The notes below the pieces were generated by a model. It saw only the letters and a list, made by a program, of their open reading frames with translations. It was not told the origin of the DNA and searched no databases. From Coffea arabica (lineage: Eukaryota; Streptophyta; Magnoliopsida; Gentianales; Rubiaceae), in the NCBI RefSeq assembly GCF_036785885.1, contig NC_092322.1, forward strand, positions 11,616,466 through 11,680,465: a DNA stretch of 64,000 nucleotides, in the 5' to 3' direction. The translations under genes and the position numbers were made by a program. Every line of letters begins with the position of its first letter. The first letter of the stretch is position 1. Below, piece after piece: positions 5,724 to 55,239 of this stretch.

Positions 5724-5899
5724 GGGGGTCTTTTTCATCGCATGGCCCATCACTTTTGTTTAGTTTCGCCTGAGTCTTGCAAAATTCGTGAGTGTTGCCG
5801 AGGTCAGTACTGTCAGCCGAGATCACAGCCGAAGTTATCAGCTCCGCCTTATTCCGTAGTCAAGAGTAAGTATCTTTCTCTTCATCTCATCTTTCACAC

Positions 5900-8182: not shown

Positions 8183-8528
8183 GCTCGTAAGTGTTTAGGT
8201 AGAATGCCGAGGTGGCAGGTGCTTAATAGCACTCCCGATCTCAGTTTTGTAATCATGTAATGCCTCTTTTTATTAAATGAAATTTCTATTTCTTCTCATC
8301 TCGGCACTTTTAATTTCTTACTTCGACCCCTGCTTGTCCCCTTTATTTTTTAATAACGGACGTGTTGAAAAATAACAAAACAGCTGAAGTCATAACTTGA
8401 TGAAATGTTCAAGCATAATACAATCTGAGGTTCTCGGCGTGCCAAGTTCTCGGCACTAGAGAGCCATCTCGGTAGCTCAGTTTACAATATTCACTAAGAC
8501 TAGACTCTACAACTCTGTAAGGGCCTTC
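8183..8528. other. Spacer between antisense gene and pol end
   Basis: AT-rich spacer where the antisense transcript (plus) and the gag-pol transcript (minus) converge. AATGAAATTTCT and similar words near 8275 could serve as a polyadenylation region for the plus-strand gene. No coding frame was seen. Confidence 0.4.
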
Positions 8529-11500
8529 CTATTTTGGGCACAATTTCCCTTGTGGCTCAGCTCGGCTGACTGAGTTTTTCCTGAGAACCAAGTCTCCTGG
8601 CTGGAATCGATGGTGTTTGACGCGGGCATTGTAATAGTGGGCAAGAGTGTTCTTGTAGGAGGCTATCCTAGTTGAGGCGATGTCCCTTTTCTCGTCGACG
8701 AGGTCGAGATCGAGCTGTCTCTTTTCTTCGTTCACCTCGGCTGCATAAGCCATTAGCCGAGAGCTGGGTGTGAAGATTTCGGCAGGGATGACAGCCTCGA
8801 TCCCGTAGGTCAAGGAGAAGAGGGTCTCCTGCGTGGCTGACCTCGGCGTGGTCCAATAAAACCACAAGAGACTGGGGGTTCTTCCACCCAAGATGATCCA
8901 GTTCGTGTAGTCGGGTCTTGAGGCCATGCAAGAGAGTTCGGTTGAAATTTTCGGCTTGACCGTTGGTTTGGGAGTGGCCCACCGAAGTGAAGTGTTGTTT
9001 GATGCCGAGGTTTTTACACCAGTTCTTAAATGGGTTCTCGGCAAACTGCCTCCCATTATCTGAAATGATAACTTGGGGTATGCCGAAGCGGCAAACGACG
9101 CATTTCCAAAAGAATTTTTTAAATGCCAGTCCGGTGATGGTCCTTAGAGGCTCGGCCTCAACCCACTTGGTGAAGTAATCCACAACGGTTACCAGGAAAG
9201 TATAGCTCCCGACGGCCTTGGGGAAGGGACCTAAGATGTCTGTCCTCCATTGTTCAAATGGCCAGGGTGAAGTGATATGAACCATAAAGTTTGAGGGCTG
9301 GTGGTGCTCGGGGGCGTGGACCTGGCAGGAAGGGCAGCCGAGAACAAGGTCTTGGGTATCTTGTCTGACGGAAGGCCAGAAATATTCGAGAAGCAAAGTC
9401 TTCTTGGCTAACATCCTGTGCCCGACGTGAGCTCCACACAAGTTTTCGTGTATCTCATGGAGAACCTGGCATCCTTCCTCGGGCATAACGCACCTCAGCC
9501 ACGGGCCAAGGTAGGAGCGCTTATACAGCTCCCCATCGCGGAGGGCTTACCGAGCAGTTTTGCGTTGTATCTTTCTTGCCTCGACTCGGTTCTCGGGGAG
9601 GACTCCCTGACCTAGGAAGAGGATGAACGGGCTCATCCAAATATCTCCAGAGTGGACGGGATAGGCCACTTCTTCCGGGTATCCCGGCTCGGTTAACACT
9701 TCCACAAAGACGGTCTTGTTGAGGTCAGAGAATGATATGGAAGCCAGCCGGGACAGAGCGTCGGCTCGCCTATTCTAGGAGCGGGGAATTTTTTGGATTT
9801 CAAAAGACTGGAAGAACGCGGTAAGTTGGTGAACTTTGGTGAGATACCGTTGCATGGTCTCATCCTTGGCCTCATATTCACCAAGAACTTGGTACACTAC
9901 GGTTGGGAGTCACTGCGGACGTGGATTCGCTGGGCACCGAATTTGCGGGCCAGTTGGAGTCCAGCGATCAAGGCCTAGTACTCGGCTGCATTATTGGTGG
10001 CCGGGAAGTCAAAGCGGAGAGCATACGAGCACACTTCCCCATGGGGGCCCTCCAGGAGCAGTCCTGCTCCACTGCCGTCCCCATTAGAGGATCCGTCTAC
10101 ATACAACGTCCACAGGTGTGGAGTGGACACCTCAGCAATGGCGGATGTGGATTGTCGACCTTCCGTGAAGGTGAGCTCGGCTAGGAAGTCTGCCAAAGCT
10201 TGAGTCTTTATGGCAGTACGTGGTTCATATGACAGATCATATTCTCCCAACTCGACAGCCCACTTGGTGAGGCGTCCGGAAGTCTCGGGACACACCAATA
10301 TCTGCCGAATAGGCTGGTCTGTTCTAACGGAAATGAGATGAGCCAGGAAGTAGGGCTTCAGCCGCCGAGCTACGTGGACTAGCCCTAGTACGAGTTTTTC
10401 GACCTGGGTGTACTGAGTCTCCGGCCCGCGGAGAACTCGGCTGACATAGTAGACCGGCACTTGAGTGCCCTCATCTCAGATGAGCACAGCACTGACAGTC
10501 TCGTCGGCTGCGGATAGGTAGAGGTAAAGCTTCTCTCCGGACCGAGGTGAAGCAAGAGTGGGTAGGTGGTGCAGGTACTGTTTCAACTTGTTGAAGGCAG
10601 CCTGGCACTCTTCAGTCCAGGCAAACTGATCAACTTTTTTCAGCATCTTAAAGAAGGGCAGAGTTTTCTTAGCAGATTGGGACAGGAAGCGGTTCAGTGC
10701 GGCCAGGCGTCCATTTAGCCTCTGGACTTCTCGGAGCTTCTGAGGTGGGGACATGTCCTGAATTGCCTTGACCTTGTCGGGATTGGCCTCGATTCCCTGG
10801 CGGGAAACCAAATATCCCAAGAATTTTCCTGAAGTGACGCCGAAGACGCATTTCTTGGGATTTAACTTCATCCTCGAGTCCCGTAGGACGCCGAAAACCT
10901 CCCTCACATCCGACAGAAAGGCCGAAGTGATTAAACTTTTGACGAGAATGTCGTTCACATAGGCCTCCACATTGCGGCCGATCTAATCTTTGAAGAGTCG
11001 GTTGATTAGCCTTTGATAGGTGGCCCCGGCGTTTTTCAACCCGAACGACATGGTAGTGTAGCAATAGACACCTTGGTCGGTGTAGAACGCCGTCTTCTCT
11101 TGGTTCTCTTCACTCATTCCTATTTGATGATATCCTTTGAAGGCATCTAGGAAACAGAGGATCTCATGTTCTATCGCCGAGTCAACGAGGGCATCTATTC
11201 TCGGCAGAGGGTAGCAGTGTTTGGGGCAGGCCTTGTTGAGATCGGTGAAATCCACGCACATTCTCTATCCACCGGTGTCCTTTTTGACCATGATTGGATT
11301 AGACAGCCAGGTGGGGTATTGGACCTCGTGAATCATTTTGGCGGGCAAGAGTTTGTCGACCTCATCGGATATGGCCTTGCTGCGTTCGGGGCCGAAGTGC
11401 CTTCGTTTCTGCCTCACAGGGCGGGCTTGTGGATTAACGTTGAGCTGGTGAATCATGAGTTCGGGTGGCATTCTGACCACTTCATCAGCGGACCACGCGA

Positions 11501-11760
11501 AGATGTCTCGGTGGTCCTTGATCAGGTGGATCATTTCTTCCTTCAGGGGCGAGGGGAGTCCGGCCCCCACTTGGACCACTTGGTCAGGTCTTGACTCATC
11601 CAAGACCACTTACTCCACCTCATCCCCGGGCTCAAACCTGCTAGGCTCTCCTCCCTTCCGAGGATCGATACTGTCTATGGAGAGGACCGCTGGCCTCTTT
11701 TCTTCACCCCTTGATGCGATCCGTGGGGTGACCGCGGCCTGGATGGTGGCGAGGTAGCAT
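8529..11760 (-). pseudogene. Decayed pol of Tat element 1: reverse transcriptase, RNase H (two), integrase
   Basis: Read leftward: reverse transcriptase (about 11610-10480, with RMCVDFTDLNKACPK and FGLKNAGATYQRL), RT-linked RNase H (about 10460-10210), a second RNase H of the archaeal type (around 10110-9975, LYVDGSSNGDGSGAG), and integrase (9486-8529, with its zinc-binding H-H-C-C region, SDNGRQFAENPF and NGQAENFNRT). Damage: stops near 11590, 11265, 10983, 10476 and 9975, and a frameshift near 8860 in the integrase. The catalytic YVDD of reverse transcriptase reads YVND. Most stops look like CAG or CGA to TAG or TGA, or TGG to TAG, the mark of methyl-cytosine deamination. The product cannot be functional. 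Confidence 0.88.
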
Positions 11761-11762
11761 TC

Positions 11763-13865
11763 TCAGGCGGCGTTCGCATCGCTGATCACCTCGGCCACCC
11801 CCGCAGGTGTCGGGAATTTGAAACTCAGGTAGTAGGTGGAGTAAACAGCTCTCAAAGCGTTAAGCGTGGGCCGGCCTATCAGCATGTTATAGGGAGAGTC
11901 TGCTTTGACCATCGTAACGCTGACAGGCACAGTTCGGCAACGGGGATGACACCCGACAGTCACCATCAGGGTCACCACGCCCTCCGGGTGGACGATGTGT
12001 CCCCCAAATCCGACAAGGGGGGTTCTGACAGGAGTGAGTTGCTCTCTGGTCAGTTTTAAACTTTCGAAAGTTCGGTAGTACAAGACGTCTATCGAGCTTC
12101 CGGGATCGACATAGACCTTTTTTACTATGTAGTTATTAGTGAGGACTTCAATCACGAGAGTTTCGTGATTGCTGGAGGCGGCAGGGACAGGGTCGTTGGG
12201 ACCGTAGGTGATCACTACGGATAATCGAGAACTTGGCTCGGCCGCTTCCATGCCGTCCTGGCGGTATGTCCGTTTTCGGGAGTTCTGACTGTCTTCTCCC
12301 GTTGGGCCACCTGCTATCGTGTTGATCACCCCGACAATGTTAGGGCCGTAACCCGGTGATCTGTCGCGCGGTGGGCGCTGATCCTCCCTGCGGTCTTCGG
12401 GTTCTCGGCAATGGATCTTGGTGTTCCGCCTGTCTTCTAGGCGAGGGCCCCGACTCTTCCGGTGGGAGGCGCTTCGGTTGTAAGCTCCATCCTTGCGGAC
12501 GAATTGCTTCAAGTGTCCTTGGCGGATCAGGTTCTCGATTTCTCGCTTCAGATCGTTGCAGTATTCGGTCTCGTGTCCGACATCTCGGTGGTAGGCACAA
12601 TAAAGGTTGGAGTTCCTCCTATCCCTCCTCCTCGGGATCTCAGGAGGGGTCCGACCGAGGTGATTTTGCCTCATCACCGCCAAGACGTGAGACCGGCTAG
12701 AATTGAGCGGGGTCAGCTCGGCGTCCGAGGTGGACGATCTGCCTTTCACGATCCGGTCGAAAACACTCCGGCGGTCTCGGAATTGGTTCGATGAGCCACT
12801 TGGGTCTGGTTCACCTCGGCCGGTGTCTTTTTTCCTCTGGAGGTTTTGCCCCGTACGAGCTGCCTGGGCTTCTCGCTTCATGCGATTTAAGTCCTAATTT
12901 CGGATTCCCTGGTCTACTCGTTCCCAGAGTTCCCGAAGTGTGCGGAGGTAATTCCGATGTATCTCAGTATTGAAGATCCCCGCAATCAACCCGTTGGTGA
13001 AGTCAGCTATAGTTACCTGCTCATTCTGATCAGGTATCTGCACATTTTCCTCATTGAACCTCTGCACGTACGAGCGCAGTGACTCGCCGGGACCCTGCTG
13101 CAGGTTCAAGAGATAAGCTAAAGTCTTCGTAATTGAGCGAGACGATACAAAGCGGTGAATGAACCGGTCTATCAACTCGTCCAGCGAGAAAATGCTCCTT
13201 GGCTCCAAGCCCCAGAACCATTTTCGGGCTTTCCCTTGTAAGAAGATAGGAAAAGCTCGGCAAATCACGGCGTTGGGGACGCAGTAGAGTCGAAATGCCA
13301 AGATGAAGGCGCGGAGGTGATCCTCGGGATCACCTCAGCCATCGTAGGAGTACAAGTTTGGGAGTTTAAAATTTGGGGGCATCATTTCCCCGTTGATGTC
13401 ATCAGTGAAGGGCGGAGCCCTCATGTAGTCGGCCGCTAAGCCTCCAGGACGCCGAGGTGGGTCCTCAGCTCGTTTTTCAAGTTGGTTCCGGAAAAATGCC
13501 CGGGAGACAGAAGCAATTTTGGAGGTCGCCTTAGAAGAGGTACGCCTGGAAGTACTCCGAGAGAGGCGCCCCTCATCGGAGTCCTCACCTGAAGGCACTT
13601 CAGGGGATTTCGTCGGCCTCCTCTTGGAAGATTCGGCCTTTTCTTTCCCCTGCCTTTTAAGGTACCACCCAAGTTTCTCAAAAATGTTGGAGTTGTCTGA
13701 TACGAACTCGGCCATCTTGGCGATGGCGTCCTCGTTGGGCTGGGTCCTTTGGGACCCTTGTTCTTCAGAGATGCGATGTTGCTGGGCTCCCGAGGTCTGC
13801 CCAGCCCCGGTCGAGGGAACTCTTCCGCTTCTGGAGTGCGTGGATCTAATTTTAGCAATACTCTC
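11763..13865 (-). pseudogene. Decayed gag-protease of Tat element 1
   Basis: The gag core is recognisable from PIFLQGKARKWFWGLEP and LAYLLNLQQGPGESLRSY, followed by a zinc-knuckle-like stretch (YCAYHRDVGHETEYC) and an aspartic protease with KVYVDPGSSIDVLYY. Gag C-terminus and protease are in one frame here (12881-11763). Two in-frame stops interrupt gag: TGA at 13335-13337, where arginine is expected before GDPEDH, and TAG at 12894-12896. Both fit C-to-T changes. The first ~150 nt of gag, next to the primer-binding site, are poorly defined. Confidence 0.85.
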
Positions 13866-13884
13866 GTTCCCACAGACGGCGCCA
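13865..13884 (-). other. Primer-binding site of Tat element 1
   Basis: On the minus strand the sequence TGGCGCCGTCTGTGGGAAC starts two bases after the end of the 5' LTR. It begins with TGG, as needed to pair with a tRNA CCA end. Element 2 has the same site at the same spacing. The tRNA species was not determined. Confidence 0.8.
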
Positions 13885-13886
13885 AT

Positions 13887-14467
13887 TGAAGAGGTGATTT
13901 TTGGTGGGTAGATAGACCGACCTAAATCAGTCCTCTCTGAGATGAGGTGAGGTATCTTTATTTGTCTGAAATGGATGGCGAGACTTCTCCCCTGATATCA
14001 CTCCGACGATCAAGTAAGTATGAGAACGAGAAAAATAGTAATATATGAGAATGAACAGTGTGCTTACTTGTTAAGAGTGTCTGGGGAGTATTTATAGAGT
14101 GGGAGTAAAAGGTAGGACGGAGGCTCATGCTGGTGGGAACCACGTCCTGGTATTACGGCTCTGTTCCCTGTCAGGAGCTCTGACTCTGACACTGTAGCCG
14201 CCAGGGCAGGGTGACGGGGAGCCTTACGTAGTAGCCATTAAAAGCATCCGCTACTTTTCAGATAAAGCACTGGCTCTGGACGATGTCAAAGGTGTTGACA
14301 TCATTAGCGTGCAGCTGAGGTGGAAACTTGATGAGCAGAGACTGCCTACGTGGTAGACTAGGGACCCGGTCGAGCTCAGGGGTCGTGCTCAGGTCATGAT
14401 TACGCTCTAATGAGAGAAGAAATGGGTTCACCTCGGCCTTGCGGGGTGACCGAGGTGAGCATCCTTA
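13887..14467 (-). repeat. 5' LTR of Tat element 1 (LTR A of the array)
   Basis: 581 bp; the plus-strand right end reads CATCCTTA instead of CATCCTCA, so the canonical terminal dinucleotide has mutated. It is followed by the right target duplication GTATC (14468-14472). A minus-strand TATA box lies at 14089-14096. This LTR is the left boundary of the gene X array. Confidence 0.92.
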
Positions 14468-14472
14468 GTATC

Positions 14473-15507
14473 AAATGCTGTGGACTCAATATGGAATTAG
14501 CCCTTCCTCAAAAGCTTCAATACTAATAATAATGATAATAATAATAATAATAATACGAGTCATTAATAAATAAAATTGGCACCTTATACAAATTTTCATG
14601 CGAACAATACAAGTCATTGTGCATTTGAAGTGTAAAATTGAAAGAGGTGAATTCTTGATTAGCTTTTAGGGGATGAGAGCTTTTCCGTCTACTACATGCA
14701 TGTGTACATATACATGTGCATGTATGTGATGTGATTACCTCATAAAAAAGCTTATGGGGTAATTTTTGGACAAGAATAATGTTAAAATACCATACGCGTT
14801 TTTAAATTTCTTTTGGTGCTTCTATTCTACAGGGAATATATAATAAAATTATCAAAAATATAAACTTGCCCAATGTACATGTCTATCACAAATATACAAT
14901 TACTAATTGTTGCTGTAAAGGTATCCATGTAATATATATATCCATTTTTGCCGCCAATTGTTTGTTGCGGTAAAATACTCTCTCGCATTTCCTGATTTAA
15001 GTGAATCACCCTTAGCTAAAAAATCATTTATATAAAAACTTGTAAGCTCTTAAATACAAACAAACAAAGAAATGCGAAAATGCTTCTAGCCGAACCCTAG
15101 AATCAAGTATGATGCATCTATCAGATTCTACTCATTCCAACATGAGAAAAAACAAACTGCATCTATCAGATCAAAAAACGAGAAATCAAACAACATTAGT
15201 CCAACGATCACCAAAAGTTGATAAAAGTTTGAAACCGAAAATTCAAGATACGTCCGAGATTGTTTACAAGTAATCAGCTACAAACGACGATCATCCAAGA
15301 TGCCTGAAAATACTGTTGCATTTTCACATCTAATATGCATTACCACCAAAAACACAAAAATTTCCGTAGGTGTAAAGCTCAGAAAATCATCTATCGTTTC
15401 TGGGAAAGAAAAAAAAAAAGAAAAAGTAAAGCTCAGAAAATGAGAAACAAGCTGTTTTCGTATTAATCCCTTCCTCCTCATCCTTGTACCCCCGTTCCTG
15501 CTCCACT
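14473..15507. other. 3' flank of gene X copy 1
   Basis: AT-rich DNA with an (AAT)n microsatellite at about 14525-14553 and an alternating ACATGTGCATGT-type stretch near 14695-14730. It is repeated in every unit of the array (16909-, 19347-, 21785-). Part of it, next to 15507, should be 3' UTR of gene X. No coding frame of its own is supported. Confidence 0.5.
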
Positions 15508-16317
15508 CTATGGCTCCATTTCTTCCTCCTCGTGCTGCTGGATCTCTACGGCTCCACAAGCTGGGACCTCCTCGGCTTCACGTCTTCCTCCTGCAGGAAC
15601 ATCCGCAGCCTCGCCTCGCCCTGCTCCTGCTCCAGCTAATTGAACCTCCCCTCCTCCAACCTCCTGCTGCAACTGCCTGTCCCTGTATCAAGACCAAGAG
15701 CGCTTATTACATAGCACAACACAAGAAAACAATAGATTAGTAAGGTCTATTACATGACGTTGGACCGGAGGCGTCAAGATCCACTGTGCTTCTGGATCAG
15801 CAGCACCATCAGGCCGCATATTACACGCCCCAGTTTTATAGTGTGGACAGTATATCAAACGGCAGCCTTGAAAGTTAACTGGAACTATCCGCTCATCCCC
15901 CTTCGCGAGGCACCTGAAGTAGTATTTTCTACCCCACCCAAAAACCAAGAACAATCCATGCCCAAACTCTACGGCAGCAAACATTAGTGGATATAACACT
16001 GACTTTTCAAACCCATGTTCAGTTTGCTTGGTTATGAAATCAACCAAAGCAAAGCAGACATGAACGCTGCAGAAGCCTATCCCAAGTATCCCGAGAGCGT
16101 CGCCCCACTTAGACCCATCCCCAGCATACCCTACAGGAATGCACTTACACCTTCGTTTAAACTCAACTCCTTCGCTTCGGCCCAGGAGGCGATAGCTAAA
16201 AATCGACCAAGCCCACCCAGCCAAAGCCACTAGAAGGGCAACCAATGCAGGTATCTTCCGATTTTCCCAGTACACGGCGGATACTTCTGCTCCCAGCCCT
16301 AAAATGGCGGGGGCAAG
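15508..16317 (-). CDS. Gene X copy 1: unknown multi-pass membrane protein, lacks first exon
   Basis: Exon 2 is 16317-15754 (188 codons, opening LAPAILGLGAEVSAVYWENR), and exon 3 is probably 15672-15508. There is no first exon: six bases upstream of exon 2 an LTR begins. Exon 2 encodes three clear hydrophobic segments (IPALVALLVALAGWAWSIF; ALGILGIGF.SVHVCFALV; LYPLMFAAVEFGHGLFLVFG) and a Cys-bearing segment (GCRLIYCPHYKTGACNMRP). Copy 1 has Cys where copies 2-4 have Trp in GFWSVHVC. The assumed exon 3 is acidic and here ends EEEEMEP by a TAG not present in the other copies. The exon 2/3 junction is inferred (GTAATA donor, CAG acceptor, ~80-nt intron). No family was recognised. Without exon 1 there is no Met before the third membrane segment, so it may be a pseudogene. 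Confidence 0.6.
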
Positions 16318-16322
16318 CTGAA

Positions 16323-16903
16323 TGAAGAGGTGATTTTTGGTGGGTAGATAGACCGACGTAAATCAGTCCTCTCCGAGATGAGGTGAGGTATCTTTGTTTG
16401 TCCGAAATGGATGGCGGGGCTTCTCCCCTGAGATCACTCCGACGATCAAGTTAGTATGAGAACGAGAAAAATAGTAGTATATGAGAATGAACAGTGTGCT
16501 TACTTGTTAAGAGTGCCTGGGGAGTATTTATAGAGTGTGAGTAAAAGGTAGGACGGGGGCTCATGCTGGTGGGACCCACATCCTGGTATTACGGCTCTGT
16601 TCCCTGTCAGGAGGTCTGACTCTGACACTGTAGCCGCCTGGGCAGGGTGACGGGGAGCCTGACGTAGTAGCCATTAAAAGCATCCGGTACTTTTCAGATA
16701 AAGCACTGGCTCTGGACAATGTCAAAGGTGTTGACATCATTAGCGTGCAGCTGAGGTGGAAACTTGATGAGCAGAGACTGCCTACGTGGTAGACTAGGGA
16801 CCCGGTCGAGCTCAGAGGTCGTGCTCAGGTCATGATTACGCTCTGATGAGAGAAGAAATGGGTTCACCTCGGCCTTGCGGGGTGACCGAGGTGAGCATCC
16901 TCA
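16323..16903 (-). repeat. Internal LTR 1 of the array
   Basis: 581 bp, same family and orientation as the element 1 LTRs. Left neighbour is CTGAA, right neighbour GTATC, so its two flanks do not match each other; each matches a different insertion site. A minus-strand TATA box (plus strand TATTTATA, 16525-16532) lies about 210 bp upstream of gene X copy 1 exon 2. Confidence 0.92.
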
Positions 16904-18014
16904 GTATCAAATGCTGTGGACTCAATATGGAATTAGCCCTTCCTCAAAAGCTTCAATACTAATAATAATGATAATAATAATAATAATAATACGAGTCATT
17001 AATAAATAAAATTGGCACCTTATACAAATTTTCATGCGAACAATACAAGTCATTGTGCATTTGAAGTGTAAAATTGAGAGGGGTGAATTCTTGATTAGCT
17101 TTTAGGGGATGAGAGCTTTTCCGTCTACTACATGCACGTGTACATATACATGTGCATGTATATGATGTGATAACCTCATAAAAAAGCTTATGGGGTAATT
17201 TTTGGACAAGAATAATGTTAAAATACCATACGTGTTTTTAAATTTCTTTTGGTGCTTCTATTCTACAGGGAATATACAATAAAATTATCACAAATATAAA
17301 CTTGCACAATGTACATGTCTATCACAAATATACAATTACTAATTGTTGCGGTAATGGTATCCATGTAATATATATATATCAATTTTTACCGCCAATTGTT
17401 TGTTGCGGTAAAATACTCTCTCGCATTTCCTGATTTAAGTGAATCACCCTTAACTAAAAAATCATTTATATAAAAACTTGTAAGCTCTTAAATACAAACA
17501 AACAAAGAAATGCGAAAATGCTTCTAGCCGAACCCTAGAATCAAGTATGATGCATCTATCAGATTCTACTCATTCCAACATGAGAAAAAACAAACTGCAT
17601 CTATCAAATCAGAAAACGAGAAATCAAACAACATTAGTCCAACGATCACCAAAAGTTGATAAAAGTTTGAAACCGAAAATTCAAGATACGTCCGAGATTG
17701 ATTACAAGTAATCAGCTACAAACGACGATCATCCAAGATGCCTGAAAATACTGTTGTATTTTCACATCTAATATGCATTACCACCAAAAACACAAAAATT
17801 CCCGTAAGTGTAAAGCTCAGAAAATCATCTATCGTTTCTGGGAAAGAAAAAAAAAAAGAAAAAGTAAAGCTCAGAAAATGAGAAACAAGCTGTTTTCGTA
17901 TTAATCCCTTCCTCCACATCCTTGTACCCCTGTTCCTGCTCCACTCTCTGGCTCCATTTCTTCCTCCTCGTGCTGCTGGATCTCTACGGCTCCACAAGCT
18001 GGGACCTCCTCGGC

Positions 18015-18755
18015 TTAACGTCTTCCTCCTGCAGGAACATCCGCAGCCTCGTCTCGCCCTGCTCCTGCTCCAGCTAATTGAACCTTCCCTCCTCCAACCT
18101 CCTGCTGCAACTGCCTGTCCCTGTATCAAGACCAAGAGCGCTTATTACATAGCACAACACATGAAAACAATAGATTAGTAAGGTCTATTACATGACGTTG
18201 GACCGGAGGCGTTAAGATCCACTGTGCTTCTGGATCAGCAGCGCCATCAGGCCGCATATTACACGCCCCAGTTTTATAGTGTGGACAGTATATCAAACGG
18301 CAGCCTTGAAAGTTAACTGGAACTATCCGCTCATCCCCCTTCGCGAGGCACCTGAAGTAGTATTTTCTACCCCACCCAAAAACCAAGAACAATCCATGCC
18401 CAAACTCTACGGCAGCAAACATTAGTGGATATAACACTGACTTTTCAAACCCATGTTCAGTTTGCTTGGTTATGAAATCAACCAAAGCAAAGCAGACATG
18501 AACGCTCCAGAAGCCTATCCCAAGTATCCCGAGAGCGTCGCCCCACTTAGACCCATCCCCAGCATACCCTACAGGAATGCACTTACGCCTTCGTTTAAAC
18601 TCAACTCCTTCGCTTCGGCCCAGGAGGCGATAGCCAAAAATCGACCAAGCCCACCCAGCCAAAGCCACTAGAAGGGCAACCAATGCAGGTATCTTCCGAT
18701 TTTCCCTGTACACGGCGGATACTTCTGCTCCCAGCCCTAAAATGGCGGGGGCAAG
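18015..18755 (-). pseudogene. Gene X copy 2: no first exon, early stop in exon 3
   Basis: Exon 2 at 18755-18192 is fully open and encodes the same 188 residues as the other copies with a few substitutions (FGYRLLG, KRRRKC). Exon 3, taken at 18110-18015, reaches a TAA where the other copies have GAA (acidic frame, after AGGRR). Only 31 residues of the tail would be made. As in copy 1, an LTR (18761-19341) replaces the first exon. If the alternative basic frame of exon 3 is the real one, this stop would not apply; that frame is open in all copies, which makes the splice call uncertain. Confidence 0.55.
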
Positions 18756-18760
18756 CTGAA

Positions 18761-19341
18761 TGAAGAGGTGATTTTTGGTGGGTAGATAGACCGACCTAAA
18801 TCAGTCCTCTCCGAGATGAGGTGAGGTATCTTTGTTTGTCCGAAATGGATGGCGGGGCTTCTCCCCTGAGATCACTCCGACGATCAAGTTAGTATGAGAA
18901 CGAGAAAAATAGTAGTATATGAGAATGAACAGTGTGCTTACTTGTTAAGAGTGCCTGGGGAGTATTTATAGAGTGTGAGTAAAAGGTAGGACGGGGGCTC
19001 ATGCTGGTGGGACCCACATCCTGGTATTACGGCTCTGTTCCCTGTCAGGAGGTCTGACTCTGACACTGTAGCCGCCTGGGCAGGGTGACGGGGAGCCTGA
19101 CGTAGTAGCCATTAAAAGCATCCGGTACTTTTCAGATAAAGCACTGGCTCTGGACAATGTCAAAGGTGTTGACATCATTAGCGTGCAGCTGAGGTGGAAA
19201 CTTGATGAGCAGAGACTGCCTACGTGGTAGACTAGGGACCCGGTCGAGCTCAGAGGTCGTGCTCAGGTCATGATTACGCTCTGATGAGAGAAGAAATGGG
19301 TTCACCTCGGCCTTGCGGGGTGACCGAGGTGAGCATCCTCA
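18761..19341 (-). repeat. Internal LTR 2 of the array
   Basis: 581 bp, almost identical to internal LTRs 1 and 3, flanked by CTGAA and GTATC. It lies directly upstream of gene X copy 2 on the minus strand. Confidence 0.92.
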
Positions 19342-20353
19342 GTATCAAATGCTGTGGACTCAATATGGAATTAGCCCTTCCTCAAAAGCTTCAATACTAA
19401 TAATAATGATAATAATAATAATAATAATACGAGTCATTAATAAATAAAATTGGCACCTTATACAAATTTTCATGCGAACAATACAAGTCATTGTGCATTT
19501 GAAGTGTAAAATTGAGAGGGGTGAATTCTTGATTAGCTTTTAGGGGATGAGAGCTTTTCCGTCTACTACATGCACGTGTACATATACATGTGCATGTATA
19601 TGATGTGATAACCTCATAAAAAAGCTTATGGGGTAATTTTTGGACAAGAATAATGTTAAAATACCATACGTGTTTTTAAATTTCTTTTGGTGCTTCTATT
19701 CTACAGGGAATATACAATAAAATTATCACAAATATAAACTTGCACAATGTACATGTCTATCACAAATATACAATTACTAATTGTTGCGGTAATGGTATCC
19801 ATGTAATATATATATATCAATTTTTACCGCCAATTGTTTGTTGCGGTAAAATACTCTCTCGCATTTCCTGATTTAAGTGAATCACCCTTAACTAAAAAAT
19901 CATTTATATAAAAACTTGTAAGCTCTTAAATACAAACAAACAAAGAAATGCGAAAATGCTTCTAGCCGAACCCTAGAATCAAGTATGATGCATCTATCAG
20001 ATTCTACTCATTCCAACATGAGAAAAAACAAACTGCATCTATCAGATCAGAAAACGAGAAATCAAACAACATTAGTCCAACGATCACCAAAAGTTGATAA
20101 AAGTTTGAAACCGAAAATTCAAGATACGTCCGAGATTGATTACAAGTAATCAGCTACAAACGACGATCATCCAAGATGCCTGAAAATACTGTTGTATTTT
20201 CACATCTAATATGCATTACCACCAAAAACACAAAAATTCCCGTAAGTGTAAAGCTCAGAAAATCATCTATCGTTTCTGGGAAAGAAAAAAAAAAAGAAAA
20301 AGTAAAGCTCAGAAAATGAGAAACAAGCTGTTTTCGTATTAATCCCTTCCTCC

Positions 20354-21193
20354 TCATCCTTGTACCCCCGTTCCTGCTCCACTCTCTGGCTCCATTTCTT
20401 CCTCCTCGTGCTGCTGGATCTCTACGGCTCCACAAGCTGGGACCTCCTCGGCTTCACGTCTTCCTCCTGCAGGAACATCCGCAGTCTCGCCTCGCCCTGC
20501 TCCTGCTCCAGCTAATTGAACCTTCCCTCCTCCAACCTCCTGCTGCAACTGCCTGTCCCTGTATCAAGACCAAGAGCGCTTATTACATAGCACAACACAT
20601 GAAAACAATAGATTAGTAAGGTCTATTACATGACGTTGGACCGGAGGCATTAAGATCCACTGTGCTTCTGGATCAGCAGCGCCATCAGGCCGCATATTAC
20701 ACGCCCCAGTTTTATAGTGTGGACAGTATATCAAACGGCAGCCTTGAAAGTTAACTGGAACTATCCGCTCATCCCCCTTCGCGAGGCACCTGAAGTAGTA
20801 TTTTCTACCCCACCCAAAAACCAAGAACAATCCATGCCCAAACTCTACGGCAGCAAACATTAGTGGATATAACACTGACTTTTCAAACCCATGTTCAGTT
20901 TGCTTGGTTATGAAATCAACCAAAGCAAAGCAGACATGAACGCTCCAGAAGCCTATCCCAAGTATCCCGAGAGCGTCGCCCCACTTAGACCCATCCCCAG
21001 CATACCCTACAGGAATGCACTTACGCCTTCGTTTAAACTCAACTCCTTCGCTTCGGCCCAGGAGGCGATAGCTAAAAATCGACCAAGCCCACCCAGCCAA
21101 AGCCACTAGAAGGGCAACCAATGCAGGTATCTTCCGATTTTCCCAGTACACGGCGGATACTTCTGCTCCCAGCCCTAAAATGGCGGGGGCAAG
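20354..21193 (-). CDS. Gene X copy 3: unknown multi-pass membrane protein, lacks first exon
   Basis: Exon 2 is 21193-20630 and the inferred exon 3 is 20548-20354, an acidic tail (GGRREAEEVPACGAVEIQQH, then a run of Glu) ending GAGTGVQG. All frames match copy 4. It differs from copy 4 by small substitutions (for example LMPPVQ for LTPPVQ). No first exon is present; LTR 21199-21779 adjoins exon 2. The three hydrophobic segments suggest an integral membrane protein, but location and role are unknown. Confidence 0.6.
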
Positions 21194-21198
21194 CTGAA

Positions 21199-21779
21199 TG
21201 AAGAGGTGATTTTTGGTGGGTAGATAGACCGACCTAAATCAGTCCTCTCCGAGATGAGGTGAGGTATCTTTGTTTGTCCGAAATGGATGGCGGGGCTTCT
21301 CCCCTGAGATCACTCCGACGATCAAGTTAGTATGAGAACGAGAAAAATAGTAGTATATGAGAATGAACAGTGTGCTTACTTGTTAAGAGTGCCTGGGGAG
21401 TATTTATAGAGTGTGAGTAAAAGGTAGGACGGGGGCTCATGCTGGTGGGACCCACATCCTGGTATTACGGCTCTGTTCCCTGTCAGGAGGTCTGACTCTG
21501 ACACTGTAGCCGCCTGGGCAGGGTGACGGGGAGCCTGACGTAGTAGCCATTAAAAGCATCCGGTACTTTTCAGATAAAGCACTGGCTCTGGACAATGTCA
21601 AAGGTGTTGACATCATTAGCGTGCAGCTGAGGTGGAAACTTGATGAGCAGAGACTGCCTACGTGGTAGACTAGGGACCCGGTCGAGCTCAGATGTCGTGC
21701 TCAGGTCATGATTACGCTCTGATGAGAGAAGAAATGGGTTCACCTCGGCCTTGCGGGGTGACCGAGGTGAGCATCCTCA
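21199..21779 (-). repeat. Internal LTR 3 of the array
   Basis: 581 bp, near-identical to internal LTRs 1 and 2, flanked by CTGAA and GTATC. It differs by a few bases (for example CAGATGTCG where the others have CAGAGGTCG). Confidence 0.92.
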
Positions 21780-22791
21780 GTATCAAATGCTGTGGACTCA
21801 ATATGGAATTATCCCTTCCTCAAAAGCTTCAATACTAATAATAATGATAATAATAATAATAATAATACGAGTCATTAATAAATAAAATTGGCACCTTATA
21901 CAAATTTTCATGCGAACAATACAAGTCATTGTGCATTTGAAGTGTAAAATTGAGAGGGGTGAATTCTTGATTAGCTTTTAGGGGATGAGATCTTTTCCGT
22001 CTACTACATGCACGTGTACATATACATGTGCATGTATATGATGTGATAACCTCATAAAAAAGCTTATGGGGTAATTTTTGGACAAGAATAATGTTAAAAT
22101 ACCATACGTGTTTTTAAATTTCTTTTGGTGCTTCTATTCTACAGGGAATATACAATAAAATTATCACAAATATAAACTTGCACAATGTACATGTCTATCA
22201 CAAATATACAATTACTAATTGTTGCGGTAATGGTATCCATGTAATATATATATATCAATTTTTACCGCCAATTATTTGTTGCGGTAAAATACTCTCTCGC
22301 ATTTCCTGATTTAAGTGAATCACCCTTAGCTAAAAAATCATTTATATAAAAACTTGTAAGCTCTTAAATACAAACAAACAAAGAAATGCGAAAATGCTTC
22401 TAGCCGAACCCTAGAATCAAGTATGATGCATCTATCAGATTCTACTCATTCCAACATGAGAAAAAACAAACTGCATCTATCAGATCAGAAAACGAGAAAT
22501 CAAACAACATTAGTCCAACGATCACCAAAAGTTGATAAAAGTTTGAAACCGAAAATTCAAGATACGTCCGAGATTGATTACAAGTAATCAGCTACAAACG
22601 ACGATCATCCAAGATGCCTGAAAATACTGTTGCATTTTCACATCTAATATGCATTACCACCAAAAACACAAAAATTCCCGTAGGTGTAAAGCTCAGAAAA
22701 TCATCTATCGTTTCTGGGAAAGAAAAAAAAAAAGAAAAAGTAAAGCTCAGAAAATGAGAAACAAGCTGTTTTCGTATTAATCCCTTCCTCC

Positions 22792-24356
22792 TCATCCTTG
22801 TACCCCCGTTCCTGCTCCACTCTCTGGCTCCATTTCTTCCTCCTCGTGCTGCTGGATCTCTACGGCTCCACAAGTTGGGACCTCCTCGGCTTCACGTCTT
22901 CCTCCTGCAGGAACATCCGCAGCCTCTCCTCGCCCTGCTCCTGTTCCAGCTAATTGAACCTCCCCTCCTCCAACCTCCTGCTGCAACTGCCTGTCCCTGT
23001 ATCAAGACCAAGAGCGCTTATTACATAGCACAACACATGAAAACAATAGATTAGTAAGGTCTATTACATGACGTTGGACCGGAGGCGTCAAGATCCACTG
23101 TGCTTCTGGATCAGCAGCACCATCAGGCCGCATATTACACGCCCCAGTTTTATAGTGTGGACAGTATATCAAACGGCAGCCTTGAAAGTTAACTGGAACT
23201 ATCCGCTCATCCCCCTTCGCGAGGCACCGGAAGTAGTATTTTCTACCCCACCCAAAAACCAAGAACAATCCATGCCCAAACTCTACGGCAGCAAACATTA
23301 GTGGATATAACACTGACTTTTCAAACCCATGTTCAGTTTGCTTGGTTATGAAATCAACCAAAGCAAAGCAGACATGAACGCTCCAGAAGCCTATCCCAAG
23401 TATCCCGAGAGCGTCGCCCCACTTAGACCCATCCCCAGCATACCCTACAGGAATGCACTTACACCTTCGTTTAAACTCAACTCCTTCGCTTCGGCCCAAG
23501 AGGCGATAGCTAAAAATCGACCAAGCCCACCCAGCCAAAGCCACTAGAAGGGCAACCAATGCGGGTATCTTCCGGTTTTCCCAGTACACGGCGGATACTT
23601 CTGCTCCCAGCCCTAAAATGGCGGGGGCAAGCTGAATGAAGAGGTGATTTTTGGTGGGTAGATAGACCGACCTAAATCAGTCCTTTCTGAGATGAGGTGA
23701 GGTATCTTTGTTTGTCCGAAATGGATGGCGGGGCTTCTCCCCTGGGATCACTCCGACGATCAAGTTAGTATGAGAACGGGAAAATAGTAGTATATGAGAA
23801 TGAACAGTGTGCTTACTTGTTAAGAGTGCCTGGAGAGTATTTATAGAGTGGAAGTAAAAGGTAGGACGGGGGCTCATGCTGGTGGGACCCACATCCTGGT
23901 ATTACGGCTCTGTTCCCTGTCAGGAGGTCTGACTCTGACACTGTAGCCGCCTGGGCAGGGTGACGGGGAGCTTTACGTAGTAGCCATTAAAAGCATCCGG
24001 TACTTTTCAGATAAAGCACTGGCTCTGGACGATGTCAAAGGTGTTGACATCATTAGCGTGCAGCTGAGGTGGAAACTTGATGAGCAGAGACTGCCTACGT
24101 GGTAGACTAGGGACCCGGTCGAGCTCAGGGGTCGTGCTCAGGTCATGATTACGCTCTGATGAGAGAAGAAATGGGTTCACCTCGGCCTTGCGGGGTGACC
24201 GAGGTGAGCATCCTCATTGAAAGACGAAGAAGTATATATTCAGCCGATCTTGAAGGAAAACCCAGAAAAAAAAAAGAAGAAAGAAGAAAAAGAACGATGA
24301 TTCATCAAAAGCTTGGAAAACTATACCTGAGGAAGAAACCGCGTCTCACACTTCAT
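22792..24356 (-). CDS. Gene X copy 4: the only copy with an upstream exon; LTR in intron 1
   Basis: Exon 1 is 24356-24327 from the only in-frame ATG (MKCETRFLPQ) to a GTATAG donor. Its frame stays open further upstream to a TAG at 24489-24491, so the exon may be longer or internal. Exon 2 is 23631-23068, exon 3 probably 22986-22792, for a predicted ~262 residues. Hydrophobic segments lie at about residues 32-50, 83-105 and 116-137. A Cys cluster lies at 162-175, and the tail is acidic (QQHEEEEMEPESG). Intron 1 now contains the 580-bp LTR 23637-24216, which ends right at the acceptor: the duplication CTGAA supplies the splice AG, and the LTR end CACCTCTTCA could act as the pyrimidine tract. 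It is divergent from the N-acetyltransferase-like gene at 25701. I do not recognise the family; this is the likeliest functional copy. Confidence 0.62.
23637..24216 (-). repeat. Solo LTR B, right boundary of the array
   Basis: 580 bp, same family and orientation as the element 1 LTRs, with its own variants (TCCTTTCTGAG, GAACGGGAAAATAG). Left flank is CTGAA (23632-23636), right flank is TTGAA (24217-24221), a 4-of-5 match taken as a mutated target duplication. It carries no internal element sequence, so it is a solo LTR. Confidence 0.85.
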
Positions 24357-25700: not shown

Positions 25701-26246
25701 ATGGCATCGGCAGTGGTAACAGTCGCAGTCGACGACGGCGAAGCTACGCCACTACTGCAGAGTGCTTCAGATGACTTTCCGAGGAGGAGAGAATCATCGG
25801 CGATTAGAGGAGGAGGAGGCGGAGGAGGAGAGATCACCGCTTCAGTCTCTGCGGAGGAGCCTGACAGTAACGACGGGTCAACACCACCCGTGGCAACCGC
25901 ACCAAAACAACGCCTTGTGTCTCTCGACGTTTTCCGCCGTCTCACTGTAGCTGTACGTCTCTGCAATTTCACCGCCATTCCACCCTCACCTGCTCACCCT
26001 CTTTAGCTTCTTCTTCGTCTTTTTTTTAAACTTTTTTCCCATTTGTATGGTTTGGATTGCTGATAATTTTGTTGTTAAATATTGTTTTTTTTTTTGGGTT
26101 TTTGGCAGCTGATGATTTTGGTAGACGACGCTGGAAAAGCTTTCCCGTCTATAAATCGCGCGCCTTGGTTTGGAGTGACACTTGCTGACTTTGTTATGCC
26201 GTTTTTCCTCTTTGGAGTTGGTGTTCCTGTTACTCTCGTCTTCAAG
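25701..26246 (+). pseudogene. Heparan-alpha-glucosaminide N-acetyltransferase-like gene, first two exons only
   Basis: Exon 1 is 25701-25952 (84 codons) and exon 2 is 26109-26246 (46 codons), both phase 0 with GT-AG borders. Exon 1 encodes a soluble N-terminus with a dileucine-type word (ATPLLQ) and ends QRLVSLDVFRRLTVA. Exon 2 reads LMILVDDAGKAFPSINRAPW and then DFVMPFFLFGVGVP. These are the first membrane segment and following loop of the DUF1624/HGSNAT-like family, multi-pass proteins related to the lysosomal enzyme that acetylates heparan sulfate; the plant role is not established. The family motif normally reads FRGLTVA; here the Gly is Arg. No third exon occurs before Tat element 2 (26795) or after it (to about 38200), so the gene is probably broken, or it has a very long intron. 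Confidence 0.72.
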
Positions 26247-26794
26247 GTGCTCTTCCCCATTCCTTAATTACCAAACTTGAGTGAAGGATCACCTAATGGT
26301 ACTTAATTGGTGTGGAACTTCATAACTTATTTGCTGTGAAACTTTGAAAGAAGCGAAAGTATGATTTGTGTCTGTTTTCTGATTTTACGTGTCTTTTTCA
26401 CATTGAGTGGGTTTCTGAGATATGGAGTAGACAAGAGGGTATTGTGATGATGGGATGGGATGGGGAGGACACGCCAAAGAAGAGGAGGGCCGATAATTAG
26501 ATGAAGAATGGAAAAAGAACAGCAATGTGAGATTTGATTATGGTGGTTGGTTTAGGTCGAGAGAAGAAGATGAAGCCCCTTGGTCTGTTTCTTATAGCAG
26601 AACATCGACTTGCATTGATTTTGAATTTTGCTCATATGCATAAAAATAACAATGTTCTTAAATATGGAAAATATATCAATATTGATTTAATTACGCCTAA
26701 CTACTACACTGTTAAGAAACTAGCTCCATTCTAACAAAATAAAGAAAAAGAAAGAGGAAAGTATCAGCTCTACTGTTGTTGCCTTGTTGTTCTT
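26247..26794. other. Intron or remnant up to Tat element 2
   Basis: Begins with the GT donor after exon 2 and runs to the left target duplication of Tat element 2 (TTCTT, 26790-26794). No exon-like frame with homology to the N-acetyltransferase-like family was found. Confidence 0.5.
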
Positions 26795-27265
26795 TGCAGA
26801 CGCCCCGTTGTGGGCCCGGACACGTGGCAGCCCGGGAGGAACCGAGCTGGGCCTTGGCCCCCAGACTCCTGGGAGCAGCCCTGGGCCGTACCAACTAGGG
26901 CTCCCAGGGGAGGCGGAGGTCCAGCCCGAAGAGGTCGGAGGAAGTCCCCCCGAGTGCGGGGTACTATCTATACCGGGCAAGTCCCGCGTCCTGCGGAGGT
27001 CGGACTCCCTCGCAAGTATAAATAATAGCACACATCCCCTGTACAAGGTACGCTCACTATTGACAATTTACTTTGGACAGTTGCTACTTCCCGTGAACCT
27101 TACTCACCGGAAAACTAACTTGGCCGTCGGAGCGCCCTCGGGGACAACCCTCGGACCCCCTTTGTTAGCTCATCTTCTCTGTTTTGCAGGTCTTGGATCA
27201 GCTCTCCCATCGACACCCCGAGCTGATCAGATCAGCTCTCATCGGGGAAGCTCTGCGCTTCTTCA
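26795..27265 (+). repeat. 5' LTR of Tat element 2
   Basis: 471 bp, TGCAGACGCC...CTTCTTCA. A TATA box (TATAAATA) lies at 27017-27024. It differs from the 3' LTR at five positions by eye. Confidence 0.95.
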
Positions 27266-27267
27266 GT

Positions 27268-27287
27268 TGGCGCCGTCTGTGGGAACC
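27268..27287 (+). other. Primer-binding site of Tat element 2
   Basis: TGGCGCCGTCTGTGGGAACC begins two bases after the 5' LTR, identical in its core to the site of element 1. Confidence 0.85.
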
Positions 27288-27310
27288 GTAAGGTAAGTAA
27301 GATTGCGTCG

Positions 27311-28978
27311 ATGGCCCGGACGCGATCCAAGCGTACGGCAGAGAGCACCGGCCCTGGGGGCGGTGAGGGGTCCCAGCGGAAAGAGGCCGGGGCGTCCCAG
27401 GGCGTCGGTGGCTCGGCCCTTTCAGGGGAACGGAGGCAGCAGATCTTCCAGTTCGTGACGGAGAATCTCCCCATGCTGGAGGATATAATTCGGCAGGCAA
27501 AGGAGGGAGAGGGGGCTGGGGGTGCACAGACCTCCAAGGCCAAGGGAAAGGAGAAGGAGTTACCCCCTGATCCTTCGGAGGATGAGTCGCGCGACCAGCC
27601 CCCTAGGAGAAAGCGACCCCGGACTCCTCCCCGCCCCTGAGCCTCGGTGGTCGGGGACAGCGAGAGATATTCCCGCGACAGGTCCGCAAGGAGCCAACCC
27701 AGAGACCCCTCTCCGAGGAAGCCCACACGGAATGGGTTCGAGCATTCCCCTGCTCGGTCTGTCAAAAGCCGGCCCCGCGATCATCTGGACCCTGCTCGGG
27801 ACGAACTCGAGCAGATCTTGAGGCCCCGGCTATACGAAAACAACTATGTAACCTCGCCCTTTACCCGGGAGATAGAGGACTACCCCTTACCCCGGAGGTT
27901 CAAGATTCCGAGCATCGAGATGTACGATGCCTCTACAGACCCGGAAGACCACCTCTCGGTATTCCTGACGCATATGCGCCTGCAAACCGCCGCGGATGAG
28001 GTTCGCTGCAAGACCTTCCCTATGTTTCTAAAGGGGAAGGCGCGGCTCTGGTTCCAGGGACTGAAACCGGGATCTATACGGAGCTTTCCCGAGCTGGCCC
28101 GGCAGTTTGCAGCCCAATTCGTCTCCTCGAATGTTTACGCGAGGAACGCAACCCACCTGATGTCCATCAGGCAAAGGCCCGACGAGTCGCTGAGGAATTT
28201 CATGACCCGCTTCAACGCGGAGAGCTTGCAGGTCAGGGACAAGGACGAAAAAGTGGTGATGGCCGCCTTCACAAACGGGCTCAGGGTGGAGGAGCTTTTC
28301 TACGATCTGGCCAAGAATCCTCCCGTAAACCTGGAAGAGCTCCTACGCAGGGCTCACGAGGCTGCCAACGCGGAGGAGGCGGGTCGCCTAAAGAAAGAGT
28401 CAGATCGGGAGATCGGAGATCGTAAAGGCCGGACCAACCCCCTGGAGGTGAAGGAGGCCCCGGCCAAGAAAAATGTCTTTGATCGGCTCTCGAAGGAGAA
28501 GACCCCTGCTCTGCCACCACTCTCAGAGAAGACCTACACCCCTCTAACACGGCCCAGAGCTCAGATCTTGGCCGTCATGGAGGCGGAAGGGCTGGGAGAT
28601 CGGCCGCCCAAGATGGGGACGCCCCGGAACAAAAGGAACCAGGACCAATATTGCGCCTTTCACCGTGACGTCGGACACGACACGGAGGGGTGCTGGGCCC
28701 TGCGTAAGGAGATTGAAGACCTGATCCAACGTGGCTTTCTAGGTCGGTTCGTACGCCGACCAGGTCAGGAGTTCGGGCGCAACCATTACGGGGATAGGCG
28801 TGAGGGACAGCGTCGCGACCGTCCAGAGCGGCGGGAGGCTCCTCGGAACCACTCTCCCGACCAGGATACCCAGAACCTGGTGGGAGTGATAAACACCATT
28901 GCGGGAGGTCCCACGGGGGGGGACAGTCACGCAGCCCGGAAGAATAAGCGGCCACCCCCGAAGGGGACGACTCCTTGA
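27311..28978 (+). pseudogene. gag of Tat element 2, one in-frame stop
   Basis: One frame from ATG 27311 (MARTRSKRTAES) to TGA 28976-28978, about 555 codons, interrupted only by TGA at 27638-27640. The N-terminal part is basic and proline-rich. The core carries the retrotransposon gag domain (YDASTDPEDHLSVFL; FPMFLKGKARLWFQGL; MSIRQRPDESLRNFMTRF). The C-terminal part has a zinc-knuckle-like stretch (YCAFHRDVGHDTEGC) and a conserved GVINTIAGGPTGG close to the end. In element 1 that motif continues into protease in the same frame, whereas here the frame ends shortly after a run of eight Gs (about 28913-28920). This suggests a one-base indel, though programmed frameshifting cannot be excluded. 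Confidence 0.88.
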
Positions 28979-31900
28979 AGCGTCTGCGCATGGACGAGAA
29001 GATTACCTTCGGACCCAGGGATGCGGTTCCCTTGGCTTCCGGGAACCATGAAGCTATTGTGATAGACATTGTCACCAATAACTATCGGGTGAAAAAGGTG
29101 TATGTCGACCAGGGTAGCGCGGTTGACATCATGTTCTATCGCGTGTTCAAGGAGTTCGGGTTAAGGGATGACCAGCTGACCCCGGTCCGGACGCCTTTGG
29201 TGGGTTTCACCGGACCACCCATCAGCTCGGAAGGGATGATCACCCTGATGGTCACAGTAGGTCAGGCTCCCAAGTGTCGGATCGTTCCCGTTAATTTCGT
29301 GGTGGTCAAGCAGTCGTCCCCGTACAATGTGTTCTTGGGGAGACCTGCCTTGAACGCCCTCCGGGCTATTCCCTCTACCTTTCACCTCAGCGTCAAGTTC
29401 CCCACCCCTGGGGGGATAGCCGAGGTGCGCGGCGACCCAGAGGTAGCCAGGGCTTGCTACCTGGCCACTCTCCGGGGGCAGGAGAAGGTGGTCGCCCAGA
29501 CAACCTGTTTGGAGCCCTACATCCCAGGGGATGAGGCCCAACAGCTGGGCACCCAGGATGAGATTGAGGAGTTCCCCTTGAGGAAGGAACGTCCCGACCA
29601 GGTCATCCGCATTGGGGCATTGCTGCCAGCGAACGAGAAGGAAGGCTTGAAGGCCTTATTGAGGGAGTACTCCCAGGTCTTCGCATGGACGGTGGATGAC
29701 ATGCCCGGGATCCCTACGGACCTGGCCGTCCATCACCTCGACGTGGACCCTCACTTCAAGCCAGTAAACCAAAAGAAAAGGAGTTTCGCCCCCGAGAGAA
29801 ATGAAGTGATCAGGGCGGAGGTCGGCAAGTTGTTGGAGTCCAAGATCATCCTGGAGGTCTACTACCCGACCTGGCTGGCCAACCCCGTCCTGGTCAAGAA
29901 GGAGGATCTGACCTGGAGGATGTGTGTAGACTTCACAGACCTTAACAAAGCCTGCCCAAAGGACTGCTTTCCCCTGCCTCGAATTGACAGGTTAGTAGAC
30001 TCTACTGTGGGTTTTGACGTTTTATGCTTTCTGGATGCCTTTAAGGGATATCACCAGATAGAGATGGCCGAGGAGGACCGGGACAAGACCTCCTTCATCA
30101 CCGAGGAGGGAACCTACTGCTACAGGACCATGCCCTTCGGATTGAAGAACGCGGGAGCAACTTACTAGCGCCTGGTGAACAAGTTATTCCAAAACCAGGT
30201 CGGCAGGAGCATGGAGGTTTATGTGGACGACATGATCGTCAAAAGTCGAACTGACCAGCGCCTCATACCCGACCTGCGGGAGGTCCTGGACATCCTACTG
30301 AAGAGCCGGATGCGCCTAAATCCGACGAAGTGCACTTTTGGGGTCAGATCGGGAAGGTTTCTCGGTTTCCTGGTGTCCCGAGACGGAATCCGGGCCAACC
30401 CGGACAAACTCCAGGCCATCATGGACATGGCCCCTCCGAGGAGCGTGAAGGAGGTCCAACGGCTAACAGGAAGGATGGCCGCCCTGAATAGGTTTCTCTC
30501 GCGCTCCGCGGTCCGGGGGCTGCCCTTCTTCCGAGTACTGAAAGCGCCGAAGGACTTCCACTGGACTGAGGAGTGCCAGAAGGCCTTCATCGACCTAAAA
30601 ACTTACTTGGCCGAGCTACCATCTCTGACAGCCCCAGAGCCGGGGGAGACCTTATTCCTATACCTATCCGCCTGCAACGAGGCCGTCAGCGCGGTCCTGG
30701 TGCGGGAGGATGAGGGGGCTCAGAGGTCGGTGTATTACGTAAGCCGAGCTCTACAGGGGCCAGAGACACGATACTCGCCAGCCGAGAAGTTGGTCCTTGC
30801 CTTGGTACATGCGGCACGCAAGCTCCGCCCTTACTTTCAGGCTCACGGCATTGTAGTCCTGACTGACCAACCCTTGCGTCAGATACTCACCAAGCCAGAG
30901 GTCTCGGGCAGAATGACCAAATGGGCTGTCGAGCTATCCGAGCACGACATCGGCTATCAACCCCGCAAAGCCATCAAGGCCCAGGCCTTAGCGGATTTCC
31001 TTGCTGAGGGGGCTAGCTTGAGTCTAACTGAGCTAAGCCCCCAACACGAGGAGCGGCTGCCGAAGGAGCCCTGGGTGTTGTTCGTGGACGGGGCCTCCAG
31101 CAAGGAAGGAAGCGGGGCGGGTCTGCTACTCATTTCACCTACCGGGGAAGAACTGACCTACGCCCTCCGATTGGACTTCCCCGCGTCCAACAACGAGGCC
31201 GAGTACGAGGCCCTGCTCACAGGATTGCGGATAGCCCACCAGATGGGAATAACCGCGATCCAGGTCAGGAGCAACTCACAGCTCGTCGTCCTTCAAGTCC
31301 TTGGGGAGTACGAAGCCAAGGACGAGGTTATGAAGAAGTACCTGGCCAAAGTACGAGAGGCCGTGGCCTTGTTCGAAACGTTCGAAATCGAGCGGGTGCC
31401 AAGGTCCCAGAACAAGCGAGCAGACGCCCTCTCAAAGTTGGCGTCCTCCTCATTTGCCCACCTGAGCAAAGAGGTATTGGTGGAGGTGCTAAAGCAGAAA
31501 AGTATCGATCAGGTCCAGGTCCTGGCTATAGACAGCTCGGCCACCTGGATGACGCCCCTCGTTGACTTCCTCAACTCGGGTGACCTCCCCGAAAACAAAG
31601 CCGAGACCCGACGCATCCAGCTCCGAACTGCCAAGTACGCCTACGCCGGGGGAACCCTCTACAGGAGGTCGTACTTGTCCCCCTGGCTAAAGTGCGTGAC
31701 GCCCGAGGAAGGTGATTACGTCCTGCGCGAAGTCCATGAAGGAATATGTGCGGCCCATGTGGGGTCCCGAGTGCTGGCTAAGAAGTGCCTCCTTTTGGGC
31801 TACTATTGGCCCTCCGTCTTCCGAGACGCAGCAGATCTGGTCCAGAAATGCCGAGCCTGCCAGGTGCACGCTTCGCTGCGCCATCAGCCAGCTCGGGAGA

Positions 31901-36585: not shown

Positions 36586-36593
36586 TATTTATA
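36586..36593 (-). promoter_or_regulatory. TATA box for the antisense gene of element 2
   Basis: On the minus strand CCCCTATAAATAGGGG, about 235 bp upstream of ATG 36352. It has the same core and flanks as the box in element 1 (5716-5723). Confidence 0.65.

Positions 36594-52700: not shown

Positions 52701-55239
<2,539 letters not shown>

Follow-up and report, generated by a model that had tools for sequence, protein, structure and literature searches.

A tandem array of a partial gene between LTRs in Coffea arabica, probably formed by LTR-LTR recombination

At the yeast GAP1 locus, non-allelic homologous recombination between long terminal repeats (LTRs) gives tandem gene copies, sometimes with a detected hybrid LTR, and LTR exchange accounts for 38 of 177 events in evolving laboratory populations (excerpt of PMC11790251). 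In the tandem amplification of EPSPS in Kochia, the repeats are separated by a mobile element, and the proposed model comprises two flanking insertions, unequal crossing over, and further rounds (excerpt of PMC6808082). Here we describe a tandem array at positions 13887-24216 of a 64,000-nucleotide (nt) stretch of Coffea arabica DNA (the window; contig NC_092322.1, forward-strand positions 11,616,466 to 11,680,465). In this array, LTRs of one family alternate with four copies of a segment from a predicted minus-strand gene, named gene X. All positions given below are those of the window.

The array is similar to the GAP1 case in that same-orientation LTRs flank a gene and exchange between them would lead to tandem copies. 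It differs in being an apparently old plant event with a partial gene, whereas the GAP1 report, in the excerpt available, concerns a whole gene in laboratory populations (PMC11790251). With Kochia it shares the plant host, repeats with an interposed mobile element, and the two-insertion model. However, the Kochia element, which harbors an FHY3/FAR1-like gene, is not described as an LTR element in the excerpt of that report, and the units measure tens of kb, hold EPSPS, and give herbicide resistance (PMC6808082). Tandem retrotransposons sharing one LTR also involve exchange between the LTRs of two elements; according to the excerpt of a review, the repeated interior is then the element itself, whereas here it is host DNA between elements (PMC12628747). 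The yeast CUP1 arrays are likewise natural tandem gene arrays studied via their repeat structure, but the title of the report speaks of unequal nonhomologous recombination rather than repeat-repeat exchange (PMC4232551). No plant case with this layout of LTRs and target duplications was found in the literature searched, which is no proof of absence. We regard the array as a well-preserved further case of an already established mechanism, not as categorically new and, under the exon model given below, not as a whole-gene amplification.

Self-BLAST of the window revealed a tandem repeat with a period of 2436-2438 bp. Self-BLAST and junction tables together resolved five LTRs of 580-581 bp in one orientation, interleaved with four segments of 1855-1857 bp, and bore out the alternation reported in a first-pass annotation of this DNA. 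All features of the array are on the minus strand. Its left boundary is the right LTR of a retrotransposon, element 1 (13887-14467, 581 bp). To the right follow segment S1 (14468-16322, 1855 bp), internal LTR I1 (16323-16903, 581 bp), segment S2 (16904-18760, 1857 bp), internal LTR I2 (18761-19341, 581 bp), and segment S3 (19342-21198, 1857 bp), which has nine mismatches to S2. The array continues with internal LTR I3 (21199-21779, 581 bp) and segment S4 (21780-23636, 1857 bp), which adjoins the side of predicted exon 1, and ends with a solo LTR, named B (23637-24216, 580 bp).

The junctions were uniform. GTATC was observed at the start and CTGAA at the end of all four segments, and each of the three internal LTRs has CTGAA on its left and GTATC on its right, while the outer LTRs carry the partner halves. 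GTATC is the target-site duplication (TSD) of element 1 and is present on both sides of it. At LTR B, CTGAA is found to the left and TTGAA to the right, a target-site match at four of five positions; with equal base frequencies, a match of at least 4/5 is expected by chance in ~1.6% of cases and an exact 5-base match in ~0.1%. The repeated unit starts and stops in homologous LTRs of the same orientation. The first-pass annotation had described the segment ends, the mismatched flanks of the internal LTRs, and the outer flanks in the same way, and the junction tables agree with it on each of these points.

We infer that the 13887 LTR recombined unequally with solo LTR B and that this event, followed by further unequal exchange, probably built the array. 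Initially, full-length element 1 and a partner retrotransposon of its family, pointing the same way, would have lain ~1.86 kb apart. The partner would then have lost its interior and persisted as a solo LTR, B, where intron 1 of the minus-strand gene has its 3′ splice site. Misaligned exchange between the right LTR of element 1 and LTR B would have duplicated one LTR together with the segment, which holds the gene from exon 2 on. The product would be LTR-segment-LTR-segment-LTR, with CTGAA to the left and GTATC to the right of the new LTR, and later unequal exchanges among the repeated units would have raised the copy number to four. The presence of the predicted hybrid flanks in 3/3 internal LTRs supports LTR-LTR exchange. 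Exchange followed by expansion, as proposed in the first-pass annotation, is thus the best reading of the flanks of the four segments and three internal LTRs, though not in its original form as amplification of a whole gene.

The unit boundary falls within gene X. The exon 2 frame opens directly at the right edge of the segment on the minus strand and is uninterrupted in 4/4 copies (15688-16317 in S1, 209 codons plus stop; equal length in S2-S4). Read on the gene strand, each segment opens with TTCAG, directly followed by the open frame. To the right of LTR B lies a pyrimidine-rich stretch of 110 nt (24217-24326, minus strand, GTATAG...TTTCAA), which is the rest of predicted intron 1. It is preceded by a ten-codon frame ending in CAG, which is predicted exon 1 (24356-24327, minus strand; donor CAG/GTATAG, in phase). 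Both were observed as a single copy in the window. Joining the two flanks of B yields an intron with a pyrimidine tract and a TTTCAG acceptor, immediately followed by the open frame. This joining of exon and intron across B supports B as a true insertion, beyond its target duplication alone. Exon 1 and the splice sites were read by eye; intron 2 and exon 3 are guesses by eye and were not relied on.

LTR B is therefore placed, in this exon model, exactly at the predicted intron 1 acceptor, and TTCAG (gene strand) would be its target duplication, the outer copy of which would since have changed to TTCAA. The exon model implies that the amplified unit is without exon 1 and everything upstream. 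What was amplified is thus predicted to be a promoterless 3′ part of gene X, from exon 2 onward, and not the whole gene; under this model, no unit comprises a promoter and the full coding region. The first-pass annotation had spoken of a host gene amplified fourfold. This holds for the four segment copies and not for the gene as a whole, since one copy each of predicted exon 1 and the region upstream is present in the window, to the right of LTR B. A Pfam scan of gene X (S1 frame) detected no family at E 0.01. Among 1669 candidate relatives, one match was found, P0001 (115 aa, from a 739-base contig), which is 93% identical to the exon 2 frame over 55% of the query. No relative covering predicted exon 1 was present among these candidates.

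The orientation of the LTRs was deduced from element 1, a degraded Gypsy-type LTR retrotransposon (4847-14467, 9621 bp, minus strand). It has an LTR pair with the TSD, TG...CA ends, and reverse transcriptase, RNase H, and integrase regions. The left LTR, its 3′ LTR, was located by self-BLAST and junctions (4847-5427, minus strand). Minus-strand Pfam matches to rve, Integrase_H2C2, and RT_RNaseH_2 scored above the cut-off, and the match to RVT_1 scored below its own. At the plus-strand end of the right LTR, TTA is found in place of TCA. On the minus strand, the 13887 LTR is adjoined by ATTGGCGCC, which we take to be a primer-binding-site-like (PBS-like) sequence. Together with the minus-strand Pfam pieces, it indicates that element 1 and all array LTRs read leftward. 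The 13887 LTR is thus the 5′ LTR of element 1, as the earlier annotation had stated.

Near its 3′ LTR, element 1 contains a frame antisense to pol (5900-6661, plus strand). A corresponding frame (35207-36811, minus strand) lies near the 3′ LTR of a second Gypsy-type element to the right of the array. Both frames match Pfam Transposase_28 above the cut-off, and they are 36% identical over 156 columns. A literature search on antisense frames yielded no papers. An antisense frame in this position would fit the Tat lineage, the name used for element 1 in the first-pass annotation.

Besides the junctions, the differences between copies bear on the order of events. Pairwise, the segments were observed to differ by 9-33 mismatches, and S1 also has a 2-bp deletion. 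The Kimura two-parameter (K2P) divergence of S1 from S2, S3, and S4 was 1.8, 1.5, and 1.6%, respectively; it was 1.3% for S2-S4, 1.0% for S3-S4, and 0.5% for S2-S3. The LTR pair of element 1 showed 4.3% and the internal LTRs 0.2-0.35%. This gradation is compatible with the event order that we propose. Across the four segments, substitutions occupy 45 sites and form five patterns (19 private to S1, 10 to S4, 7 to S2, 2 to S3, and 7 common to S2 and S3), which fit one tree, grouping S2 with S3, with no conflict. Thirteen of the 19 S1-private substitutions lie within 311 bp, a clustering reached by 1 of 100,000 random placements. Together with the 2-bp deletion, they form a cluster at 14642-14950 (alignment columns 177-487), near the most diverged LTR; this cluster may be a conversion tract or derive from another haplotype. 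At the 29 sites that differ between S1 and S4, S2 and S3 are S4-like at 17/20 on the left and S1-like at 7/9 on the right (permutation P = 0.009), with the best mosaic break between columns 1047 and 1098. This pattern is suggestive of a later crossover inside the segments.

Several observations weigh against the proposed history. The mosaic signal was gone (P = 0.33) when the S1 cluster (columns 177-487), which supplies 13 of the S4-like sites, was counted as one event. P0001 has an arginine, like S2 and S3, where S1 and S4 have a cysteine; S1 and S4 may thus not be ancestral at that residue. The two LTRs of one element are presumably identical at insertion. Those of element 1 differ by 24 mismatches, and its left LTR shows 14 mismatches to B and 15-16 to the internal LTRs. 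The 13887 LTR is the most diverged, each comparison with one of the other five LTRs giving 21-24 mismatches; this right LTR has either changed most or stems from another haplotype. The internal LTRs differ at no more than 2 of 581 positions and adjacent segments at more (24/1857 for S2-S4), which a simple history leaves unexplained. Their likeness may come from some homogenization or from entry of a circle multimer. Moreover, their hybrid nature is visible in the flanks only. The order of the two informative sites inside them is not the one that a single crossover would leave (site 109 is like the right LTR of element 1, site 155 like B), and five changes are common to the internal LTRs and present in none of the other three. 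A crossover point inside the internal LTRs was sought by site comparison and was not located, too few changes being shared.

We also considered other origins of the array. Intrachromatid LTR-LTR excision could have produced a circle of one LTR and one segment, which, perhaps after amplification, re-entered an intact chromosome at its LTR or segment. Identical junctions would be expected from such an event, near-identical internal LTRs would suit entry of a multimer, and LTR-LTR circles carrying the gene are described at yeast GAP1 (excerpt of PMC11790251). However, an extra step is required, and with S3 and S4 1.0% and S1 and S4 1.6% apart, a single recent entry is insufficient for all copies. 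We consider re-entry of a circle rather unlikely. An assembly artefact, in which a single segment or a pair of haplotypes was placed repeatedly, is very improbable. The 9-33 substitutions per segment pair indicate that the array is not one contig copied, private changes are present in each copy, and duplication of haplotypes is not expected to cut at identical LTR junctions every time.

We find it scarcely credible that the segments represent interiors of a non-autonomous LTR element in tandem (LTR-interior-LTR-interior). They start with the host target duplication GTATC, their frame abuts a predicted splice site, and the PBS-like ATTGGCGCC is located beside the LTR in element 1 and not in the segments; this candidate was rejected because no PBS-like site adjoins them. 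In its favor, tandem elements with one common LTR have been proposed as products of LTR exchange (excerpt of PMC12628747). Separate insertions at one site were rejected as well, because 3/3 internal junctions pair two different target sites.

The copies may differ in their use. S4 alone could be able to splice to exon 1, because the acceptor would have come along with the target duplication. The private changes in exon 2 comprised 0 nonsynonymous and 4 synonymous in S4 and 4 and 1, respectively, in S1-S3 together (Fisher P = 0.048), in a test that was chosen post hoc, includes nine changes, and leaves out three changes shared by S2 and S3 (1 nonsynonymous, 2 synonymous). With a neutral nonsynonymous fraction of 0.72 for exon 2, four synonymous changes in a row have P = 0.006. 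The nonsynonymous:synonymous counts in exon 2 were 4:3 for S1-S2, 3:3 for S1-S3, 1:5 for S1-S4, 3:0 for S2-S3, 3:6 for S2-S4, and 2:6 for S3-S4. With the reservation of small numbers and a post hoc choice, the private changes lean in the direction that continued use of S4 alone would predict. Judged from sequence, S4 is most likely the remaining working gene, spliced across LTR B, and S1-S3 are most likely by-products without exon 1, not a selected increase in dosage.

The array LTRs are in sense with gene X, and TATAAATA is located at offset 371 in 6/6 LTRs. The units could be truncated genes driven by LTR promoters and encoding a 98-residue C-terminal protein, with S4 still spliced to exon 1 across B and under constraint. 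We consider this distinctly unlikely, and we are just as doubtful of its corollary, that the solo LTR took over the splice site and promoter at once and the array was built in few steps beside its parent. A putative transcript started in I1 and running into S1 would contain four out-of-frame ATGs before the first in-frame ATG (98 residues). AATAAA-like signals were detected in 1/6 LTRs only, so that a transcript end at the next LTR is without support. Both findings speak against truncated genes driven by the LTRs.

Other features were observed on either side of the array. Left of element 1 lies a DUF4057 gene (509-1456, minus strand; E ~1e-49 for each of two exon frames). The second Gypsy-type element (26795-37299, plus strand) has 471-bp LTRs that are 98.9% identical, TTCTT on both sides, and long gag and pol frames. 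The integrase regions of this element and element 1 share 67% identity over 193 residues, and tandem repeats are located inside the second element past its integrase frame (32964-33468). To its left, plus-strand frames at 25701-26267 presumably resemble the initial exons of a heparan-glucosaminide acetyltransferase-like plant gene; one of the two frames has a sub-threshold match to DUF5009 (E 0.022). This candidate gene and gene X would be arranged head to head, and the second Gypsy-type element would lie inside or beside the candidate. The region 46360-63986 contains several diverged direct repeats, mostly 74-92% identical, with similar frames at 47240-47848 and 49815-50402, the former with a sub-threshold C2_GRDP match (E 9.1e-5). 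None of the LTR matches of the array was detected within this region by self-BLAST, and it is perhaps an older tandem gene cluster.

The array thus represents a readable natural record of how two neighboring retrotransposons can turn the intervening DNA into a tandem array, with TSDs marking both parents. An array of this kind does not necessarily provide extra copies of a working gene. The landing sites of the LTRs, here apparently including a splice site, set the boundary of the unit, and copy number and gene dosage can therefore diverge.

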